Assembly (NCBI GenBank): GCA_004335835.1
Contig: RWJK01001842.1
Span: 152,477-216,476, forward strand
Source of the DNA: Scenedesmus sp. ARA3
Lineage: Eukaryota; Chlorophyta; Chlorophyceae; Sphaeropleales; Scenedesmaceae
Reading direction: 5' to 3'
DNA length: 64,000 bases
Shown here: positions 41,307 to 56,600 of the stretch, one piece after another
How positions within the stretch are numbered: position 1 is the first letter of the stretch
Layout: the number at the start of each line of letters is the position of its first letter
Translations under genes and position numbers: made by a program
Notes under the pieces: model-generated
Databases searched by the model: none
The model's input: the letters and a program-made list of their open reading frames with translations, nothing else
What the model was told of the DNA's origin: nothing

Positions 41307-41383
41307 ATAATTCGGTGACACAATTCAATGGCGTTGATGCTATGGCTTGATGGGTAACATGATGATGATGATAATTCGGTGAC
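41307..41383 (+). mobile_element. Micro-retroposon copy 1 with 13 bp target-site duplication
   Basis: A 51-base insert (41320-41370) sits between perfect 13-base direct repeats ATAATTCGGTGAC (41307-41319 and 41371-41383). In its sense direction it reads ATGGCGTTGATGCTATGGC, then TTGATGGGTAACATG, and ends in an ATG-triplet tail. The same core is at 45566-45616 and 55405-55451 in other contexts. It lies 12 bases after the stop of wall protein C. Confidence 0.72.
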
Positions 41384-41856
41384 TTAGGACCTGATGAAGG
41401 TGATGAGCCTGATGAGGCACATTGGGGGCTGCAGTTTCAGCTGTTGACAGAAGGATGGGATTTTGCTAGTAGGCGAGCGAGTCAAGCGATTGCAGCTGTT
41501 TGCTGCGTGGCGTTGCAGTCCAGCTGTCTGCACCCGGGTGGCTGGACTGTTGCGGGGCCGGTTGCTGGCTGCTTCTGCAATTTGTCAAGCATTTACTGTT
41601 CAACAGGCTGCATGGCACAGCTGGGTGTGGCACGACCCTCAGGGGTTTGCACAGGAGTTTTGGTTGATGCGCTCGGTGGTTGTGCCAGCCCTGCCCTGTG
41701 CCGTGTAGCTTAGCAGCTACTCGGCCCAACCTGCTGTGGTGCTTGACAGGACTGTGGATTCGGCTATGTACATGTGCAATCTGTACATGATTGATACTGT
41801 GCATTTTGCTCAAAGTGATTGCAATTAATGCTTTATGGTCAAACACATTGCACTGT

Positions 41857-41861
41857 TGTAA
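41857..41861 (+). terminator. TGTAA poly(A) signal candidate, wall protein C
   Basis: TGTAA 563 bases past the stop codon. Assigned by position only. Confidence 0.35.
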
Positions 41862-42798
41862 CTGGACAGAGAGCTCGCTTCACTTCAGCCTGACTAACGG
41901 CACAACTGCGATCTTTGCACGGCTGTCGTGGCTACCAGTGTAATCACACCTGCCAGGCATGATGCCGCAGCAGTGCGCTGCGCTGGTTGACAGCAACCGA
42001 ATCACTGGCCGCCTGCGGCTGGCAGGAACAGGACGCATGCTGGTGGTTACCTGCTTCCTTTCCAACAGTATCAGTATGTGCACGACACCATGAACACACC
42101 ATACAACCGTGCTTAGGTTGCTGCTGTTGGCCACAGCCACGCGGCATGCATAGGTCAACAACAGCCAGTGAAGTGCAGTACCACGCAAGGCAGCTGCAAG
42201 CAGCACAACTCTTTTCAACACACGACATCACAAAACTGCACCTTGCCACAAAATTGGTGCGTCTCAAGCAGCTCACCAAAACACTGCCTTTGGTTATACG
42301 GGAGCAAAAATCCACGCCAAACATGACGTCATCACATAACAGCAACAGCCACAAGAGGCAGCAGGACTTGAGGTAAGGCAGCCACATCCGACTAGCGTCC
42401 TTCAAGAGATTTGAATAGTGTTGCTCGCATCTCAGCAAGCACGCGCATCACTGCTGCGCGCAGAACATCTCAACATTGTACAAAGGTTCACATGTTGAAC
42501 AAACAAGTGCAGCATACTCAACTCTCAGCTGCACACATACAATCACAACAGCGCTTCCTGCAACACCGCCCAGCGCAGAATACGCATGCGCTGCAATCTG
42601 GCTAAGCTACCACACTGCTGCCCTTCTGCTACCAGCTGCCATGCGCTCTCACAGTTTGCCATCCAGTACACAGCAAACGCTCGCACACCACCCCCTGCCT
42701 CAAGTTGCGTGTCTGCAGCACAACCTGCTGCGCTGGGTGGTGCGGCGCTACAGCAGCAGCCCGGTGGCCTCAGCAATGCCTCAGCGATGAGGCTTGCC

Positions 42799-44992
42799 TC
42801 ACTTCTTCTCAAGGCCTGGCAGCTTCTTGATGATGGAGCCCTGCAATGGCAGCAACAATGCAGCAAGATGAGCGCAGCAATCTTTTAGACGCAATCTAGA
42901 AGGATAGCAAGGGGAAAAGAAGATGGTTGCATACATGCAGTGAGCAGTTCTGCTGTGTGATGTGCGCAGGAAGACGGCTGCCTTCCTGCCTCGCGCATCA
43001 ACTGTAGCCTGTACTAGTCGTCTGCCACAAAGCACCATCCTCAGTCCCGCTGCTGGTGTTTAAGTGCGTGGTTCGTAGCATGCAGATGATGCTGCGGGCT
43101 CCTGTGCCATACGCATGTGCCGTGCGCAACACAATATCAACAGCAGCAGCATCCACTGCGCCTCACCGCCGCTGCCTCGATGTCCTTGGAGGCGTCGTTG
43201 CCGTCCACGTACCAGCGCACCGCCAGGTAGGGCAGCGTGAGCAGGCCCACCAGCTGCACAGGGAAGCCCAGCACCTGGCGGGCGCAGCAGCAGCAGCAGC
43301 GGCGGCGGCGGCACGGACACACCACGGGAGGATGCCAGACGTGAGGAGTGACACAAACGTCTTGTGCAGCAGCCGGCACATTCTAGCGGAGTTGCACGAA
43401 GCTGATGTTGCTGCCGCAGATGCTGGCCGTGACGCCCATGCAAGCATACTGCAGGCCTGACCAACCTTGCTTCCTGCAAGCCGCTTGCAGATTCGCCACT
43501 TGATACAATACATCTTAGGATGGAAAGCTGCTTCAGGGACATGCCCAGCGAGCCGCTACTCTGTTCACTCACCACGTCCAGTGCGGGCAGGTGGATGAGC
43601 CACTCTGCGATGAAGAAGGCTGACACTGCTGCAGCCACCCAGCCAATCACCACAGGCTTGTTCTCGGTCTTCTCAAACTGCACGCGGCAAAGTGCATAGG
43701 CAATGGAAGCGCAGGGGCAGTGCGGAAGTAGCGTGGAGCGTCAGCATCAACAAACATGAGCTGCATTGATGAGCAAGTAAGCTAAACAGAAGCCACAGGC
43801 TTGTTCTCGGCCTTCTCCAACTGCATGCAGCAAGGCACATGGGCAGTGCAGCGGGTGCAGAGCACATGCGGAGCATCAGCATCAGCACCAGCAGCGATGT
43901 TACGCAATGTTCTTGGGCTTCTCAAGCTGCCGGCAGTACAGTGCATAGGCAACGGAAGTGCAGGGACAGTGCAGAGCATCAGCATCAACAAACATGAGCT
44001 GCAGTGACATGCAGGCAAGCTAGACAGAAGCCAGCACGCTGGCTGGCACGACACTGCCAGGGAGCGAGCAGTGGCAAAGCACGGTACCAAGGTTGCCATG
44101 CTCTGTTGGAGCAGAAAGGTACAGGACCTGCACATGAGCACAGAGGGGTGAAAGCAAAAGCTGCTATTTTGGAGTGTGCTGCGGATGCAGGTGCGCTGCT
44201 GTTGTGGGGTGTGCTGCAGGCGCAGGTGCGTTGCTGGTGTACGCACCTTGTCTGCCCACTCAGCCAGGTATGCATCAAAGTCTGCAGTGTAAGGCAGGGC
44301 AGCAGAAGGCAGGGCAGCTCAGCGCCAGTCCACTACTGCACATGCAGGCCGCGCAGCAGCTGCTGTTGAGCTGTATTGCCAGCAGGCAACTGCTGATGTC
44401 TGCTTGTGCTGAGCTGGCAGCGGTTGGGACGCTGCGGCACAGCGAAATGCTGGAGCTTGATAGCAGCGCTTTGAGAGCCCCAACAGGTCTAAACTACGGC
44501 CTCACCCTTGCTTTCTGCCCTGACCACCACGCGAGCTGCAAGACAGACAGGCACACAGACAGGAAAGGGGGCACAGGCAGCAAAGGGCAGGGCAGCGGTT
44601 TGAGCTACCGCAGAAACAAGCATCACCGTGAAGGCTGATCAAAAGCTGTGAGCTCGATCAGGCATTTCCACTGCCGTGCGTACACTATGGGGCCCAGATC
44701 ACGAGTTGTGCCAGTTCAAACGACCCAGGAGCAAACCGGCTGTTGAGAGCTAGCAGGGCTGCTTGCAAGCCGAAATATGCATCAAGCTAGGATATTTACG
44801 GCAAGGAGATCCTCGCAAGCCTGCAGAGAGACAGCGGGCGCTGCAAGCAAGCTGCAAGCCCGGGTCATAGCGTTCCGCCTCACCGCTGGGTTGAGGAGCA
44901 GGCCTGACAAGGCGTGCTGGCACCACTGGCACACGGGCGGATGCAGTGCTGGCAAAGGACGCACAAGCACGGCGCTGCAGCATTATGGCCAT
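42799..44992 (-). CDS. CURT1: CURT1/CAAD-type thylakoid membrane protein
   Basis: Small thylakoid protein of the CURT1 family, which bends grana margins by oligomerising. Exons 44992-44884, 44535-44506, 44281-44247, 43677-43573, 43274-43167 and 42840-42799 give 142 aa. The start, MAIMLQRRACASFASTASAR, is a Ser/Ala/Arg-rich chloroplast transit peptide that runs to about VVVRAES. The mature part begins DFDAYLAEWADKFEKTENKP with an amphipathic helix. Two hydrophobic hairpin segments follow (VVIGWVAAAVSAFFIAEWLI; VQLVGLLTLPYLAVRWYV), then a charged helix ending IIKKLPGLEKK. Length and order fit CURT1. Assignment rests on this layout and the ENKPVVIG block. It is framed by the two inverted wall-protein paralogs but is unrelated to them. 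Confidence 0.85.
43790..43990. repeat. Two decayed copies of the CURT1 exon 4 acceptor edge
   Basis: ACAGGCTTGTTCTCGGCCTT at about 43796 and TTCTTGGGCTTCTCAAGCTG at about 43909 copy the exon 4 edge at 43652-43681 (ACAGGCTTGTTCTCGGTCTT), each with the following GTGCATAGGCAA-type intron bases. The spacing is about 115-145 bases. Only the 43573-43677 copy keeps a full coding frame. Confidence 0.8.
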
Positions 44993-46471
44993 TCTGGTTG
45001 AAAGCAGACGCGATACAGCAGAGCGCTGGTGCAGGTCCTTGTATTCGACAGGGACAGAAGATCAAGTAGGACTCAAAAACGATACAGCAGCTGTGAGATG
45101 AGCTCTACGGGCTTCGAGGATAACACTTCAGACTGGAAGTTGATCAAGCGCGGTGCTTTCAAATCTGTCGTGGTTGAGCAGCACTCCCCGCACCTAAGCA
45201 CTCTCCATTGTTGGTCATGGCTTATCATCCGTGTTTCAATATCAGCCATTGATCGTCAATGGTAGGACAGGCAACAGACAACTATCCTTGATGTACCCAA
45301 CCAAGATCCACACGTCAGGGAGTCAAAATCAAGCACTTCCCCTCTGGAAAACTGTACAGGCTGTACTACACTCACGCCCTGACAGCGTTGATGGCTGCAT
45401 ACCCCTATCCGGGCGTGCAAGCACACTGCTTGTCACGTGCTGGGCCCTAGCGGCGCGACTCACTGCCGCTGCGGCAGGCCCACGTGGGCTGACACCAGCT
45501 GCGCACAGGCACCATGCACCACAGGCTGGCACAACACATGCAATGGGTGCTATGCACACACCCCTCATCATCATCATCATGGTACCCATCAAGCCATAGC
45601 ATCAACGCCATCGGCCATGCACACGCCCCTGAGAGACAACAACAACCCGACGCTTATGAACCCGGCGGTAGGCAGCCGACGCTGACTAAGAGGTTGACAC
45701 CACGCTTCCAGGATCACACTACACGACGCTGCCTGTTCAACAGGATAATGCTCATCAACAATGGCTGCCGCAGCAGCACATAGCGCACACGATACAGGGT
45801 GCACTACGGTTCGCTGTGTGACCGTTACTCACAAATACACACGCGCGGGGCATGCGCAAAATAGGCGCGCCAACTCCCCAGTCATGATGATGATGAAAGT
45901 AATTCAGTTGAACATCATGGTTGGTATGGTAACAGGAGCACCCCACTGGCTACATGCACCAGCAGTGTCGCACTTCACGTTGAACTGAGAAAGCTGGCAT
46001 GCAGCGTGCGCCAACAACTTGTGCACGTCAGCACTGAAACTAAACTATCAAATTGATGTATGTATGCGAGGCAAGTTCAGCCCAAGCCAAGCTGTCGAAC
46101 GCAGTGGTGCAGTACTCCAAGGGGATGGAAGTGATGTGTTGTGTTAATGATCATCCATCCTGCAAACTGGTGTACAAGCGTCAAGCACCGTAGCGGGGTA
46201 GCAGGATGTGTGTGTGAACTGTTTGGCTGCTCAGTAAGTAGCATAGTAGATGCGTCCCAAGCTCCATGTTTGGCACCGTATTGCCCGTCACAGAGTGCGT
46301 CAGTGGCACTGCTGCAAAATGCTGTGCGCATGCCGCCCAAACAATGTCTGCAGCATCGCACCAACACATATGTGGCAAGCACACCTTCAGCAATCCAGGC
46401 ACCGACCAGCAACAGACGTGAGCTGGCGCGTTCATGGGCAGGGCGCCTCACACATCAACCACTCCTTCGCC

Positions 46472-46523
<52 letters not shown>

Positions 46524-46533
46524 AGCGCTGCGC
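44993..46533. other. Intergenic: CURT1 upstream and wall protein D 3' flank
   Basis: About 1.5 kb, no gene recognised. It contains one copy of the 51 bp interspersed element (45552-45630) and a CTG run (46471-46522) next to the stop of wall protein D. Confidence 0.5.
45552..45630 (-). mobile_element. Micro-retroposon copy 2 with 14 bp target-site duplication
   Basis: A 51-base insert (45566-45616) lies between ATGCACACACCCCT (45552-45565) and ATGCACACGCCCCT (45617-45630), matching at 13 of 14. On the plus strand it begins with five CAT triplets and contains CATCAAGCCATAGCATCAA and CGCCATCGGCC. The sense strand, with a terminal ATG tail, is therefore minus. Confidence 0.72.
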
Positions 46534-48430
46534 TCAGTTGCTCTGTGGCGGCGGGCGTGGCGGGATGCTGTTGCAGTCTGGGAAGTACCGTCCAATGTCG
46601 TAGCCATCAGTCTTGGCGTCACTGCAGCACTGGCTGAAGCCGTCCCTGCAGCAGCAGCAGCAGCATTAGGGTGATAAGTGACAGGGTCAGAAGCGATCTG
46701 GTTGGTGCTGTGAGAGCTGTAGGCTGAACCATTGAGTACAGTGCTGTGCCTGCCAAGCTGTTGAACGCCAGCTGGCAGCCACGCAGATGCTGCTGTAGCT
46801 GACACAGTGCACGTGTGTAGCTGCTGTTAGCTGCATTGCACTCAATATATCAGCATCAAGTCGGCTGTGAGTGGTTGCCGCTGCAAGGTGCTGAGACTTG
46901 AGCTGCAGCAAAAGACGTCTGCCAGCAGAGCAGGCATGGGCCAGCAAAGGTTCCAGCAGCACCACGCACCAGGAGTCTGCGTCTGTCATGTCGTAGTCCT
47001 GCAGGCACAAAAAGAAGGCAATGCAGGATGCAACAGCAGTAGCAGCATCAGATTTGACCAGTTGCATGTGAGTTGAATGCACACAAACACACCAGAAGCT
47101 GCTGGTATCTTGCTTTCACATGGCAGGCAAGCTGCATGTGTGGGTTGTTGTTGAGTCAGCACAGCACCTGCGGCACTGCTCGTGTCCTGCTTTCCAATTC
47201 ACGCCGCTAATGGCTTCAGCACAACTCTGCACAGGCACGCACCCCTTTGCTGCACTGGTAGTCCGGTGCCTTGTCTGGCGTGGGCGCCGGGGTGGCAGGT
47301 GCAGGTGCCGGCGGCGGTGTAGCAGCTGGTGGTGGTGGTGTTGGCGCAGCAGCTGGGGCAGCTGGCCCTGGGCGGGCCGGCAGGCTGTTGCAGTCTGGCT
47401 CCACAGCACCCGGCTGCGCCTTTGCTTCATCGCAGCACTGCTTCATAGCATCCCCTGTGGGTGGGTGGTGAGGATGCGGGTGTGCAGGGCAAGCGCAGTG
47501 AGCAAGCAGTTGCAATGCAAAGCGGTGAGCAGTGTATGCTCGACAACATGGCGAGTATCACCTGTGCATGTGAGGAGAGGACAGAGTTCAGGCACATAGT
47601 CAGATTGCTATAGAGCTAGGCTGGCTGGAGAGTGTCTGCTGCGCTTGACACTGTGTTACTGCTTGTGTCACAAACAAGGGACTATAGGCCTGCACGCTTG
47701 CAAAGTTAGCTGTGGTGGCACGTGCATCAGCAAGCCATTTGCTTCGTGGACTCACATTCATCTGGGTCTGCCATGTTGTAGTCCTGTAAGGCCACGCCAG
47801 CAGAGTGACATGTGCAGCAGCAGCAGCAGCAACAGCAGCAACGAGTGTCAGCACTCTGACTCTTGCTGCTGTTGTGCAGCCGTCAGTGCAGTTAGTCCAA
47901 ACAAGCCACACACCAGCAAATAGCTGCGTAGCTAAAACAGCACGTGGTTCTGGAAAGTTCAAGCCAGCGTGCACCCGCTGGTCAGCACAAGGTGTGAACA
48001 TGCATGCACGCTCCTCTACAGTCGTGTCGTATGGTATCCAGTGCATGGAGATGTCAGTTACATCATGTTACATCAAAGTGCATGCAGTTGCAAGTTACAT
48101 CATGTTGTTACATCCTTGTAACATGCTTGATGCGCTGCTTCGTGCCGCATGCACACCGCACCTGCACGAAGCACTGCCGCTCATATGATGCTGGGGGAGG
48201 GATCGCAGGTGGTGGCTGCGCCGGGGGTGGTGTCGGGGCGGGTGTGGGTGTCACCGGTGTCGGCGGCGGTGTCACCGGTGTCGGCGGTGGCACCACAGGC
48301 GGGGGTGTAACCGGGGTGGGCGGTGGGGTGACAGGTGTGGGGGGAGGGGTTACAGGTGGCGGTGCCGGCGCTGGCGCGGGCTCCGGGGGAGGTGTTGGTT
48401 GGGGAGGAGGCGCCGGCGGCTGTGGCCGGC

Positions 48431-48472
<42 letters not shown>

Positions 48473-50058
48473 GACGGCAACAGTGGTGTGTCAGTATGGT
48501 GGCTGGAAGGTGTTTAGTTTAGGCTGGAGCTGTGGCATCAGCGCCTGCTGCTGCTGCACACGCACGCAAGGTGAACAATGGACTGTTACAGATATGCCTA
48601 TGCATGCAAGTGCAGCTGCTCATCACCGCCCGGCAGGCAAGCTCTCACCGTTGTTGCTGGTGGCGGCGTAGGCGTGCCACCTGATTCGCCAGTGCCACCG
48701 CTGCCGTCACTGGCCCCACCGCCAGTGTCACCCGCAGGTGGCGCAGGTGTGGGTGTGGTGGCTGGTGGCGGTGTGGTACTGCCGCCTGAAGTGTCACCCG
48801 TAGGAGGTGACGCTGGTGGTGGTGTAACCGGGTTGGGTGTCCCAGCAGGCGGTGTCACCGGGGTTGTGGGGATGGGGGTACCACCAGACACTGGTGGTGT
48901 GGTCGGCTGCGTGGTGTCAGGTGGAGGGGTGGTGGAAGTAGGTGGCGGCGTGGGCGTAGTGACACCAGCTGGTGGTGGCGTCACCGGTGGCGGCTGCTGA
49001 CCTGGCGGTGTCACTGCTGTGGGTGGGGAGGGTGAGCTGGGTGGCGGGCCCGGCGGCTTTGTTAGATCTACTGCTATCACACCCTCTGCTGCTTTAGGCA
49101 TAGGTGTGGGAGATGGGCTGGGGGCGGAGAATGGATCCACTGTGAACCTCGGCACACTGTCACTCGCAGTGTCTGTTGATGCCACCACCAGCAGTGACAC
49201 ACTGTAGCTGCCTGCCGGCAACAGCACGGTGGCATTGGCGCCGTCCACTACGCGCTTGAAATCCTTGTTGTCTGTGCCAGTGCCTGTGATGGTCCATGTG
49301 AAGGACTTTATGCTGCCCCCGAGCTCCGCCTTGGTGCCTGTGGAGTCCAGCAGCACAGTGCCGCCCTCCGCTGACTGCGAGGGGAAGCTCTGCCGGCGTG
49401 CTGGTGATGCAATCACCACAGTTGACTGCGACATCTGCCCAATCCAGTCTGTTGATGAAGTAGCAGATTCTTGGCTGATGCTGCTTGCAGCAGCCCGAAG
49501 CGGTGTTGGAGTGCTAGCAACACTAGCAACAGACGCTGTGCGCTGCTGCGTATTGGCAGTCTTGCTGTTCCGTTGCGCCTGCTGCCGTGTTGCCCTTGCT
49601 GACTTTGCAGCTGCTGGTGACGCAGCAGTGAGCTTGCGAGCTGCTGCTGCAGCTGCACTGCTGTCCGCTGCGTTTGCTGAACCATGTTGACCTCGTTCGG
49701 CTCCTTCACCTGCTGCTGCTGCTGCTGCTGCTGCTGGGTTGCTGCTGCTGAGTTGCTTGCCTGCATGTGGGCAAGCAGCTTTGCTGTCTGGTGCAGCGCT
49801 GTCACCTGCTGCTGCTGCTGCTGCTGCTTCTGCCTTTCTGGCAGATCCCTTTGATGCCAGGCCTGTCCAAGGCCTGCAATAAAATGGTGAGCAGCGTTTT
49901 GTTCAGCGTTCAGCTGGGCTGGCCTGCTGCAGCCATCATGTTAGCAAAACTCGACAGGTTTGCTGCAGCACCCACCTTGCGGTGAAGAGAGCGCTCGCGG
50001 AGTCCGATACTAACAGGAAGCAAATTAATGCTAGAAGTCTTCTGCTTCTCGCCTCCAT
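46534..50058 (-). CDS. Pro-rich secreted wall glycoprotein D: PKD-like domain and two 4-Cys modules
   Basis: Inverted paralog of wall protein C, 648 aa. Exons 50058-49976, 49873-48649, 48419-48162, 47783-47756, 47454-47243, 46998-46970 and 46645-46534, with the same number and phases of introns. Signal peptide MEARSRRLLALICFLLVSDS, then an Ala/Gln region. The PKD-like domain is nearly identical to that of C at DNA level (GGTVLLDSTGTKAELGGSIK). Pro/Thr-rich repeats (AVDLTKPPG; arrays of PVTPPPT) are likely hydroxyproline glycosylation sites. Two Cys modules follow: DPDEWDAMKQCCDEAK to PDCNSLPARP and DADSWDGFSQCCSDAK to PDCNSIPPRP. The CTG run of intron 2 abuts the exon 3 acceptor. Likely exported and hydroxylated by a P4H; wall function is inferred from composition. 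Confidence 0.87.
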
Positions 50059-52574
50059 TGCTCGGCTCGAAAGCATATCGTGCTAATCTTGGTGCACCGA
50101 GCACCCGACCAAGCCACAGGCCGGGCGCCCTTCTTACTGCAAAGAATGTAATCTTTTAGCCATTTAAGGAACGAAAACTCAGGATTGAACGGTGTCACCG
50201 CAGGGAACTGTGAGAAGCCTGAAGTTTTTGAAGGAAGGTCGTGGGCTCGATCGTGTAGCTGAAATCGGCTAGCTTGATATGTTTTGTTGATAACGCGATG
50301 CAGCGTATGGCGGGATGTTTGCGTGCATCCATGCTCCGTGACTCCCACCTCAAAACCTCTGCTAGCAGGCCAATAGCCACGGTCATTTTATGAAATGTGG
50401 GAGCTCATCGTAGTATCGGCATCGCAGATTACAGTCCAAACAAACGTAAGTATGCGTTACAGGATGGGCACGTGGCCTACTTGACAATCAGACTCGCGAA
50501 CGCTACAGGGTGCATCCAATGCTGAAGAGTCTTCAAGCCCTGTACAGTTGCACGGACGTTGCACGTGCAGCTGCTGCCCTGCCTTGGAGAAGCAGCCATC
50601 AACGTGGCTGAGCAAGCCCAGGTTTAGCATCCGCGATTGCAGCAGGTGGGCTTTGCAAATTGTGCCAGTGCATGTGCCTGCCATTCTCCAATGTTTGAGT
50701 CACCAGCGTTCAGCGGCTGGCGGAGAGAGCGGTGTGACCCAAGATTGCTTTGCAGCGCCTGCAAGTGGGAGCTGTACAGAGCTTAATCCATGACGCAATC
50801 TGTGTGAATCCATGACATGCAAAGGCCCTTTGCGCGGTACACGGTGCACGGTGCACCTATCGTATGCCTCTTTCTGCTGCAAGCTTTGCCGTGGCCCAGG
50901 ACAAGTGCAACTTGTCCTAGGCGAGCAGCCAACGTAGCACTGCAACTGTTCCCGGAACAGCAGAGGCTCTGCATGAGCTCAGGCATTGATCAATGCCTCA
51001 TGAGGCAGCTGCAGCTCAGCTGGAGAGGGTTTGGAGGGTGCCACCAAGGGTCCCTGGGTGCTGCAGCTGAGCTGCAGGAATGTGGTCCAAACTCTCTCAA
51101 GCTGAGCTGCAGGAATGTGGTCCAAAGGTGGCTCCCTTGGGGCCTTGAGCAGCTCAAGTTGAGCTGCAGTGCCAGGCACTTGAGGCCATGGTGGATATGG
51201 CTGAACTCCTTGGTGCAGGTGCAGAATACGCTGAAGCCTGCTGAGCCCCCCCTCACCCGCCAGGCAATGCATGCATTGCTGCGCAGCAGCGGCTGCTGCA
51301 GCTGGTAGACCTGCAGCTGCCCCGGCCGACTGCATCTTATGCCTATGATAGGCACCAGCTGCACGTCAGCAGCTGCTGACGTGCAGCTCAAGCATACTCA
51401 GACAAATGTGCGCATGCGGATCAATTAATCTGCGTTGCAGGCGGTGAGGAGCAACTCAAACAAGTCCGATCACCAGTAGTTGTGATGGCATATTTCTGCT
51501 GTCGAAGCTCTGATTGCAATTGCCACTGCGGCATGGTGGCGGCCATCATGGCAGCAGTAGGCTGTAGCACTGCAGGTGTTTTGTCAGACTGTGATGAAAG
51601 CACACCGACATCGCTCCGCCCATCAACCACCTTCTGCAACATGGGTCATCATTTTTCACTTGAGAGTGGTACCACTGCGGAGCGCAGTGCATGATGCTTC
51701 AGACAGTGCTGCACAGCAGCGCCAGCACCTGCGTGCGTGACGACGCATGTATGAGTTTCAATTTTCAACGACACATTATGCATATAGCTATGCTACGTTT
51801 GCGCCATGCAGCGCATTCATTGGACAGCCGATCAGGCATCGCGCGACAGCTGCAGGACCCTAGGGTCCCTCAGGCCTGCGGCATGCGCTGGCCTGGGATG
51901 CAGTCAAGCCTGGCTTCAAGCAACAATTTCTATGCCTTGAACAAGGGCATGCCTGTGCAAGGTGTGCTGCACGCCCTCTGAACGTACCCAGATGGCATGC
52001 GTGATCAGCGGAGTTACGTGGCCCAGTGCGGCTTGCTGCAGTTCAGCTCAGCTGGCCTAGCGGCTGGCTTTACGTCACACCTGCAAGCAGCAAGCTTGTT
52101 AACTGATAGATATCACATGCCCAAAATTTCTTCAATGGTAGAAGGTTGCTGCAAACTCGCATTAGCCAAGCCTTCTCCCTACTGCCAAAAGATTGCCTGT
52201 CGATCAGCCTGGCCCTCAGGGCCTGCACAGCACAGCGATGACAAGAGGTGGATCGAGCCACGCATCGGAGCAGCACTTTTGCACATTTCAACCTCGTTGA
52301 ATGCAGTTTCTATCACAAAGGAAATGCAAGCCACGCCACGCGATCCTGGTGGAGCGCACTGCAACTGGCGCAACCGAGTGCCACTAACTGTTGATGTAAC
52401 AACAGAGCTTGAAGTCACCGGGCAGTGCAGCTCACACATTACTCAGCAACATCAATGCGATTGTTTCAAGGCAGAAATCGTGCGATTGTTGCGCAACGTT
52501 TGCGCCATTCATTACACACAGCAACGGACTAGCGAACAGTAGAGCGGCTAGAGGAGTTCAGCAAGAAAGCAGCG
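50059..52574. other. Long divergent upstream region, wall protein D (-) / fasciclin (+)
   Basis: About 2.5 kb between head-to-head genes. It should hold both promoters. The only clear structure is a direct repeat of GCTGAGCTGCAGGAATGTGG plus TCCAAA at 51066-51091 and 51101-51126. The open frame at 51997-52542 (181 codons) has no recognisable domain or splice partners. Confidence 0.5.
51066..51126 (+). repeat. 26 bp perfect direct repeat, 35 bp period
   Basis: Two identical 26-base copies start at 51066 and 51101. A partial third (GTTGAGCTGCAGTGCC) follows near 51158. They lie between wall protein D and the fasciclin gene. Confidence 0.88.
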
Positions 52575-53634
52575 ATGAGGCAGTCAGCAGCATTAGTTGC
52601 GCTGACAGTGCTTGCAGGTGGGTGAATGGGTGCAGCACCTAATCAGTCACCGAGACCGTCGGGCAAGGTGTCACTGCTACGCTTTCTAGGCATTACAGCA
52701 ATGCAACTCCGTCGTAATGCATTTCAAAACTTCTAAAAGGTGTAATTGAGGGGACGTGGTCCACGATAACGACGAGTATGAAGTCGTTGACACCCGCCCC
52801 AGCAAACGTCCTGCTGTTGGTTGATTCCGAGGGGAGGTCGCAGCGATAGGCCATAAATTTTGATCGTTGAGTACGTACCTTTGACGTATCTGCTGAATCA
52901 GCATTCGTCTGGGTGTGTCACCAGTGTCGAGCAGTGTCACCAGCTCTGTTGCTTGCTCCATGCTGACCATCCCCCGCACTTCCTGCAGGCGCACTCGTGT
53001 CAGCATACGCACAGGAGGCTGCAGGACCAGCCCCAGCAGCAGCAGCACCAGCAGCTCCAGCAAAGACATGCAAGACAGCGCTGGACCTCATTGCCAGCCA
53101 GAACATGAACCTGCCGGTGCACCCAGTGTTCCAGAACATCCTGAACTCTGAGCACCTGAAGGGCACTCTGTTCATCCCTACTACCAAGGCATGGGACTCC
53201 TTCTTTGCCACCATGCGCCAGCGCCAGGGCAACCCTGCTGCGCCCGCCATGGTTGCGCGTTATGGCCAGATCCTGCTGTACCATCTCGCCAAGGTGAGGG
53301 GGGCATGAACAGCATATGAATCCCATGATATGAGTGTTTTGATGTTGTCTGCACTACAGATGCCGCTGCAGAACTCATGTCCGTCTAATTGTATTCGTAA
53401 GTTGGCTGCTGACGAGCGCCGTCACTGCTTTCTAGAGTTGCCCTGCGTCAATCCTCAAATGCATCTACACAGTCAAGGTGGCTGCATCCACACAAGGCTT
53501 GCCAGCTTGCTGATATCAGTGCACCCCCGCACACACTAGCCAGCGCTATCAATGGAAGCAGCCCACATTCACATGTACGTCCTGCAGCTGCACACCAGCT
53601 GACCTCCACCTGCTCCCGCTGGTTATCGTGCTGC

Positions 53635-53669
<35 letters not shown>

Positions 53670-56600
53670 CTGCTGTGGCCTGCAGGATGTGCAAGTGCCT
53701 GTTGCTGACGCCACGCCCGGCATCAACAAGTTTGCTGTGGACACAGCCAGCACGCTGCAGTGCACCTTTGGGCCCGGCCTGCCCAACAACAGGCTGGTCA
53801 TCAAGAAGACACCAGAGGCCATCATAGTGAGTGGACCCAGCATTGTTGATGCAGCAGCAGCGGCAGGATGCATTGCACCAGCACCCAAGCTTGTACATGC
53901 TGGACAACGCATCCTTTCCCTGCTTGCGCAGTGTAATTGAGCAGCTGGAGTGGCTGGCGCATTCCTGCTGCTGTGCAAGCATCGCGTCGTAGCAAGCAGC
54001 ATGCAATACGGCGCGTTGGTTGTTGCTGAGCGGTTCTCCCTGCTGCACCTGTTTGCTGCCTGCTGTTTTGTTTGCTGTTTGCTGCTGCAGGTGCAGCACG
54101 GCACCGGCAACGCCACCATCATGAGCCAGAAGATACAATACTGCGGAGGAGAGGCCTACCTGGTGGACCAGGTGGGGCACTGCTGCTGCTGCGGCTGCTG
54201 CTGCTGCTGCTGCTGCACAGCGTCACTGCTGATGCAAAGTTATGCAGTATCCTGATTGCGCCTACCCTTCGTAGCTGCGACTGCTGTGAGGAAACGAGGC
54301 TGTCCAGCCAGCGCAGCAGCAACGTGCAGCACTCTCCAAACTCTGCCTGCGTGGTGTTCTTGTACGTTGACGCCTGTGCAGTTGAGCTGCAGCTTGCTGG
54401 GACAATGCCTGAGACAGATCTGCACATTCTGCGCTGTACTTGTAACACCACTGGACTGCATTGTCTCGCTATGTGCTCGCCTCCGCGGGTGCTCAACCTC
54501 CGCAGCAACATCTCCGCCATCATGGGCAGGGTACAGCCTGAGGCAGATTCCAGTCCATTGTTTGTTCTGTGCTGTACTGAACAGCATTGCGCCTTGTGCT
54601 GCCCCTCCGCAGGTGCTCAACCCCTGCAGCGACATCGCCGCCATCATGGGCGAGATCGCCAACATCCCCAGCCCCTGCAAGAGCAACGTGGAGGGAGTGC
54701 TCAACAAGAACGAGCTCACATACTTCAACGCGCTGCTGCTGGCAACAGGCGTGCAGCGGCCCATCTTCTCCTCAGGTGAGCTACAATAGGACATGTACTT
54801 CATGCCTGCGCATGCCGCTAAACCACCACCTGCGTGATTTGAGGAAGTAAGGAATCAAGAAGTAAGGAAGCAACATACCAGCCACATGGCGCACAATTTG
54901 CTGCTCCTGTGTGTGCTCCGCTGGTGTTCTTTTGCCACTGACTGCTGCTCTGCTTGAGCATGACACTCACTGCTCTTGTGTGCCGCTGCTGCTGCTGCTG
55001 CTCTCCTGTCCACACAGTGCGCAACTTCACACTGTTTGTGCCCTCTGATGAGGCCATCCAGAACGCATTCCGCAGCGGCGCACTGAACTACCCCTACCTC
55101 TACGCCAAGAATGCCACCCTGCTGGAGGGCATTGTGGCATACCACGCAGTGCCGCAGTTCCAGTTTGCGGGGCCCAGCAAGCAGACGCTGAGCATGAAGA
55201 CGCTGCTGACTGAGGTGAGCGCCAGCAGCCAGCCAGCAGCAGCAGCAGCAGCCAGCAGCGGCGGAGGCAGCAGCAGTTGATGAGCTGTTGTGTCTGGGAT
55301 TGTATGGCAACCTGCAGCAATGTATTTGCCTGCAGCACAACCGGCCTGTGTTGCCGTAGTAAGCATGCGTGCAGCGCACTAGTAACACCTCATGGACTGC
55401 ATCTTATCATCATGTGACTCATCGAGCCATAGCATCAACGCCATCGGCCCACATGGACTGCATCTACAGCGACCTCCTGTGCACCGCCATAATTTGCGAC
55501 ACAGCACTGTCCTACTCAGCTGTCTCATTTGCCAGCTGGTTTGCTATGAATGTTACATGCAAACGTCATCAAGGAGTCAACAACACACCCGCAGGGCACG
55601 GATGAGGCGCAGTGCTTCAACCCCAGCCTCATCACGCTGCTCCACCCCTGTGGAACACACTGCAACACCGCACACATCCCTAAACCCTTTTGTACGTGCG
55701 ACAACTGTCTTCCGCAACCCGCAGGGCACCGGCGAGGCGCAGTGCTCCAACCCCAGCATCAGCTGGCGCCCGGACGGCTTCGTGTACGGCGGCACAGGCT
55801 CAGCACGCGTGAGCGAGGGCGCAGACCGCGGCTGCAACACGCAGATCCGCGTGATTGATGAGGTGCTGCAGCCCTGCTGCAAGCCCATGGCTGATCTGAT
55901 TGGCGGGCCCTCTGGGCTGGCTGCCAAGGCTCCTAAGGGCTCCATTCAGGCAAAGGCCTACCAGTACCTGCTCAGCAAGGTCAAGGTGAGAATGGAGGCG
56001 GCAAACATAGAGGACACCTGAACTCTTACACTTGAAATGCTACAGTTGTTGTGAGGGGGGATTGATGACCATCGCATAGACAGACCTACCGGTACCTGCT
56101 CCGCAAGGTCAAGGTGAGGATGGAGGCAGCACGTGCAAGACCGAGGAGATTTGAAGTTGGGTTGTTTTTTACAATTTTCAGTTTGCAGTTGGCTTGCAGT
56201 TGAGCTGATTACCTGTTCGGCAGAAGGGCCCCATGTTGACTGTCGTGGGGTGTCACAGCAGAGCAGTTGCTGCGTAATACGACAGCAAGCATCCATTCCA
56301 CGTGACAGCACGGCTGTCAAGGACACTGCCGCTTGGTTGCTGCATCTTGTGCCTGCAGGATGGCACCGCTAGCTGGTTGATGTGTTTGTACACACTGTAA
56401 TGCATGACAGCAAGTTCGCATCCATCTGCCATGCTAGCACTCACACCCAACTCCATTCCGGAATGTCACACAAGTCTCACGCTGTTAGCTTTTTCCACCT
56501 GCAGGATGGCGCCGCTGGCACCACTTTCATCATGCCCTCAGCCGACGCCTGGGCACAATTCGAGGCCGACGCAACAGCCCAAAAAGTCAACCTGACAAAT

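Follow-up and report, generated by a model that had tools for sequence, protein, structure and literature searches.

The three short repeats found in the window (the whole 64,000-nucleotide stretch of DNA from Scenedesmus sp. ARA3 that was analysed) are almost certainly independent, severely 5'-truncated insertions of one green-algal family of non-LTR retrotransposons (LINEs), probably a family of the Sphaeropleales. The repeated unit consists of the last six to eight codons of the LINE reverse-transcriptase (RT) open reading frame (ORF), the stop codon, an 8-nt 3' untranslated region (UTR) and an (ATG)n tail. No name for this algal LINE family was present in the titles and abstracts returned by literature searches. 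Truncated LINE 3' ends as a kind are already known; only the unusual shortness of many of the insertions stands out, and the mechanism behind them is a known one.

A preliminary description had placed three copies in the window, each enclosed by its own flanking repeats of 13–14 bp, and a direct re-check found all of them in place (Table 1). They share a 19-nt core, GCCATAGCATCAACGCCAT, which is exact in all three copies (41328–41346 on the minus strand, 45593–45611 and 55426–55444 on the plus strand), and with three mismatches allowed, three or more matches occurred in none of 100 shuffles. The element parts were aligned using L087, a longer copy of the element, as the reference. The shared sequence of the 47–51 bp unit described earlier was borne out, with the refinement that the unit has no fixed length (see the parts aligning to L087 in Table 1). 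The extra bases of copy 1 sit between its upstream repeat and the element part, and copy 3 is the most diverged of the three, with CGA at its stop-codon position.

Table 1. Positions of the three LINE 3' ends and their target-site duplications in the window.
Feature	Position	Strand	Basis
Copy 1, upstream target-site duplication, ATAATTCGGTGAC	41307–41319	+	Identical to 41371–41383 (13/13)
Copy 1, eight extra bases	41320–41327	+	No alignment to element; element alignment begins at 41328
Copy 1, LINE 3' end, last six codons onward	41328–41370	+	100% over 44 nt (41328–41371) to L087 3' end; frame from longer copies
Copy 1, TGA stop	41348–41350	+	Reading frame in longer copies
Copy 1, 3' UTR, TGGGTAAC	41351–41358	+	
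Copy 1, (ATG)4 tail	41359–41370	+	
Copy 1, downstream target-site duplication	41371–41383	+	13/13 identical to 41307–41319
Copy 2, tail-end target-site duplication, ATGCACACACCCCT on + strand	45552–45565	-	13/14 against 45617–45630
Copy 2, LINE 3' end with (ATG)5 tail	45566–45616	-	98% over 49 nt (45568–45616) to L087; tail count
Copy 2, target-site duplication at element 5' end	45617–45630	-	13/14 against 45552–45565
Copy 3, tail-end target-site duplication, CATGGACTGCATCT on + strand	55391–55404	-	Identical to 55452–55465 (14/14)
Copy 3, LINE 3' end	55405–55451	-	93% over 45 nt (55406–55450) to L087
Copy 3, target-site duplication at element 5' end	55452–55465	-	14/14 against 55391–55404

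Comparison of the outer 200-bp flanks of the three copies revealed no long collinear segment in common. The strongest matches (best E 1.8e-4) paired 19–32 nt of the copy 1 5' flank with the 3' flank of copy 3 at 81–90% identity, and these fall in tandem-repeat-like (CAG/CTG-rich) stretches. With no long collinear segment common to the outer flanks, a reading of the three copies as one segmental repeat, which the preliminary description had named as counting against its own interpretation, was ruled out. A possible fourth copy at 45883–45896 was rejected, being an ATG repeat alone with the remainder of the element absent. The window also carries an ORF with a Fasciclin match (FAS1, PF02469; 54954–55277 on the plus strand; E 1.4e-5, 25.7 bits, cut-off 22). 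Copy 3 is situated just downstream of this ORF, perhaps within an intron of the same gene; a Pfam search of 55392–56018 for a downstream exon of the FAS1 gene gave no match.

The whole-genome search proposed in the preliminary description was undertaken on the 87.3 Mb, 1567-contig genome and identified 442 occurrences of the 19-nt core with up to two mismatches, and none of the reversed pattern. Copies were sampled from a list of 100 core places, all exact, of which 70 were taken, the remainder being four near contig ends and 26 from contig C741 on. With one extra copy having two mismatches, beside a listed copy, this gave 71 copies from 68 loci, and the three window copies were added (n = 74); core copies within loci L086–L138 lie outside this sample. 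At L054 (G000:C620), two insertions of the family occur ~130 bp or less apart. Element copies with part of the core apparently deleted were seen at L096, L107 and L134, the deletion in L107 falling between two ATGGC repeats.

Read in the sense direction, a typical copy is composed of ATGGCGTTGATGCTATGGC, TTGATGRGTAAC and then (ATG)n. An ATG triplet tail of varying length at the sense 3' end had been noted from the window, and a tail of 3–6 triplets is found in 61 of the 74 sampled copies. Going upstream from the core, copies part from one another at various points, and 30 of the 74 extend into GTTGCCGCTCCATTGGGGCGCGGGGCCG or a close variant, several of them for hundreds of bases. In the long copies a single frame ends in ...VRNACKHDGVVLPSVAAPLGRGADGVDAMA (...RGADGVDAMA), with the TGA stop located within the repeat unit and followed by the 8 nt TGGGTAAC and (ATG)n, while some end in a shorter variant, ...KHEGVVAAPLGRGADGVDAMA. 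The unit is thus the 3' tip of a LINE whose copies have many different 5' ends, in agreement with one of the two origins first suggested for it, the truncated end of a larger LINE. The element also becomes rarer going upstream: a query with the 81-aa C-terminus matched at least 146 places, the preceding 89-aa stretch at least 28 and the 107 aa before that at least 11. Near the C-terminus, 42 of 63 retrieved proteins retain RGADG, and because this motif is encoded just ahead of the tail, RNA recognition may be part of the reason for its conservation. A stable 3' hairpin was considered and rejected, since the predicted fold of the 71-nt 3' end (-24.6 kcal/mol, z -1.14) was matched by 24 of 200 shuffles and is not significant.

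On the evidence of protein comparisons, the ORF that ends in the unit is the C-terminus of a reverse-transcriptase protein. Three protein searches returned 9, 25 and 39 relatives, with a precomputed PF00078 assignment in 23 of the 39, and seven relatives are named Scenedesmus sp. NREL 46B-D3 (Sphaeropleales). One protein, P0033 (697 aa, JGI source), possesses an RVT_1 domain at residues 98–319 (E 1.9e-25) together with a zf-RVT match below the cut-off, and its residues 486–697 share 72% identity with the algal C-terminus. The ARA3 genome has an RT fragment at a contig end (L079, contig C201), and over 149 residues this matches P0033 with 82% identity. RT and tail did not appear together on any contig read from this genome, where the copies meet contig ends or gaps; P0033 joins the RT of L078/L079 to the C-terminus, and the link from RT to tail in this genome therefore rests on a protein of another source. 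Longer members, or a LINE with the same 3' end, were among the things to be looked for according to the preliminary description, and both the long copies and the coupling of RVT_1 to the same C-terminus in P0033 answer to this. When compared with solved structures, the RT of P0033 resembled R2 proteins best (E 8.7e-11), with human L1 ORF2p at 2.8e-4. A search of the window with P0033 gave nothing significant (best E 2.4).

Several other sequences were rejected as the parent RT or as parts of it. L070/L085/L081 and L075/L077 showed no overlap with the C-terminal copies, L078/L079 being fitted instead, and a 1156-aa 'open frame' at C495 proved to be mostly a run of N. Following a long copy upstream on C94 (L133, L137) led to no recognisable RT. 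The recovered sequence holds no N-terminal part, and an endonuclease was not found in it. The genome additionally harbours remnants of one or more further LINE-like RT lineages (L070, L080, L081, L085), several at contig ends. Its best RVT_1 match (E 5.8e-43) is a 609-aa open frame, L069 (G000:C1497:8631–9287), which from its appearance by eye is presumably similar to an organelle group II intron maturase.

Target-site duplications were sought by comparing the sequence just past the tail with that around the 5' junction, using a threshold score of ≥9. Direct repeats at this threshold were found in 56 of the 74 copies, compared with 6 of 1457 control pairs in which the flanks of different copies were combined. 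The flank test suggested at the outset thus shows most sampled copies to carry duplications, and the originally proposed target-primed reverse transcription (TPRT), leaving a duplicated target site and a triplet tail, fits these 56. The repeats range from 9 to 21 bp (median 13). They are present in 29 of the 36 copies whose upstream extent is ≤12 nt from the core, 19 of the 21 at 13–60 nt and 8 of the 17 at >60 nt, a group that includes three copies which served as alignment references. Half of the 18 copies below the threshold (9) are among these 17, some long copies falling below it because they run to the end of a contig or to the limit of 420 nt set for the search. In 35 of the 56 a C precedes the duplication, and in 37 the duplication begins with A, which possibly reflects a target preference, the boundary being partly ambiguous with the ATG tail.

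Shortness is the most distinctive property of the insertions. Among these copies, all selected for containing the core, the 5' end lies ≤12 nt upstream of it in 36 of 74, giving a total length of about 50–60 bp, at 13–60 nt in 21 and at >60 nt in 17. Genome-wide, with up to two mismatches, the tail alone was counted 651 times, and the addition of 8, 16 and 24 bases upstream of TTGATG reduced this to 477, 365 and 209, although these counts are rough, the patterns being of unequal length and the last two containing less tail. Since the counts fall without a break, and since examples of copies shorter than the core were also seen, the unit has no fixed length.

This bears directly on whether the unit could be a ~50 bp SINE or minimal independent retroposon, transcribed and mobilised as a whole with a 3' tail borrowed from a LINE. 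A preferred start could be read into the 23 of 74 copies that end 0–2 nt upstream of the core, and the tail is held in common with a LINE, as in the SINE/LINE pairs described for Chlamydomonas (PMC3747384). However, there is an edge at the core boundary because the copies were chosen for containing the core, and the genome-wide counts drop steadily as the pattern is extended upstream. A SINE would also have a 5' head of its own, with an internal Pol III promoter, common to the copies, but comparing the 74 copies over the 150 nt that precede the element part yielded just six alignments (four of 21–28 nt, one further LINE match and one overlap of two neighbouring copies) and no shared non-LINE head. 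Moreover, the window gave no Rfam match at gathering scores, and the unit is LINE coding sequence. Given the variable 5' ends and the absence of a shared head, a SINE was rejected as very improbable, and with it the 'minimal retroposon' of the preliminary description.

A short non-autonomous DNA transposon or introner-like element would likewise be short, dispersed in both orientations and accompanied by duplications, yet no inverted repeats were found at the three window copies, the duplications of the sampled copies vary in length (9–21 bp), the triplet tail occurs at one end only, 5' truncation is variable and the unit is continuous in coding with a reverse-transcriptase ORF; such an origin is improbable in the extreme. 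Three features expected of a LINE were, by comparison, observed: an RT (through P0033 and the fragment L079), target-site duplications that differ in length, and variable 5' truncation with a constant 3' end.

If the copies are truncated LINE insertions, a putative LINE endonuclease would nick the target, and the RT would prime on the nick and reverse-transcribe the element's RNA starting at its ATG-repeat 3' end, in many cases halting within tens of nucleotides. Second-strand cleavage and synthesis would then leave the dead copy flanked by a target-site duplication, and slippage probably varied the tail length. Early termination of reverse transcription suffices to account for the short copies. 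A stronger proposal, which we regard as tentative and rather doubtful, is that the usual insertion of this family is a fragment under about 60 bp, the RT typically quitting no more than tens of nucleotides after priming, perhaps owing to an RNA recognition structure inside the last ORF codons, and that hundreds of ATG-repeat micro-insertions are left as a result. Should the skew to tiny insertions hold in a complete assembly, this would be a LINE with an extremely short usual TPRT product, and if so it would help in studying what determines the length of 5' truncation. Several hundred short repeats of this genome are explained as LINE debris, and they are therefore not to be annotated as SINEs or minimal retroposons.

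With respect to clade, the algal family points two ways. Its very short 3' UTR (8 nt plus (ATG)n) is an RTE-like trait, while a CCHC-like motif follows the RT in 44 of the 63 retrieved proteins, fragments included. A C-terminal CCHC after the RT is not known to be typical of the RTE clade; a CCHC after the RT is found in the L1 clade.

The truncated RTE copies of Lepidoptera described by Tay et al. (2010; PMC2887409) are the same phenomenon as the algal units. In those RTE elements the 3' UTR is extremely short and built of simple repeats, often trinucleotides, and their abundant truncated copies consist of the RT ORF end and the repeat between target-site duplications, all of which is shared by the algal family. 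Those authors warn that truncated RTE 3' ends can be mistaken for SINEs, and their table of microsatellite clones includes partial lengths down to 39–60 nt, some of them maybe cut by the clone end. The hosts there are animals and the target-site duplications given in the discussion are 6–12 bp, whereas the algal duplications have a median of 13 bp. Among green algae, the account of Chlamydomonas in PMC3747384 includes the LINEs L1-1_CR and RandI/Dualen, with SINE partners that share their 3' ends, those of RandI (SINEX) ending in simple repeats such as (ATT)n. The present family resembles these LINE/SINEX systems as a green-algal LINE with a shared 3' end and differs, going by the descriptions given there, in its tail, (ATG)n as opposed to poly(A) in L1-1_CR and (ATT)n or (CTTT)n in SINEX families. 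In its variable truncation, target-site duplications and dead copies far more numerous than long ones, it is like ordinary 5'-truncated LINE families. Defective LINE members are, however, put at 100–1000 bp in that account (PMC3747384), while nearly half of the core-containing algal copies (36/74) are about 50–60 bp in all.
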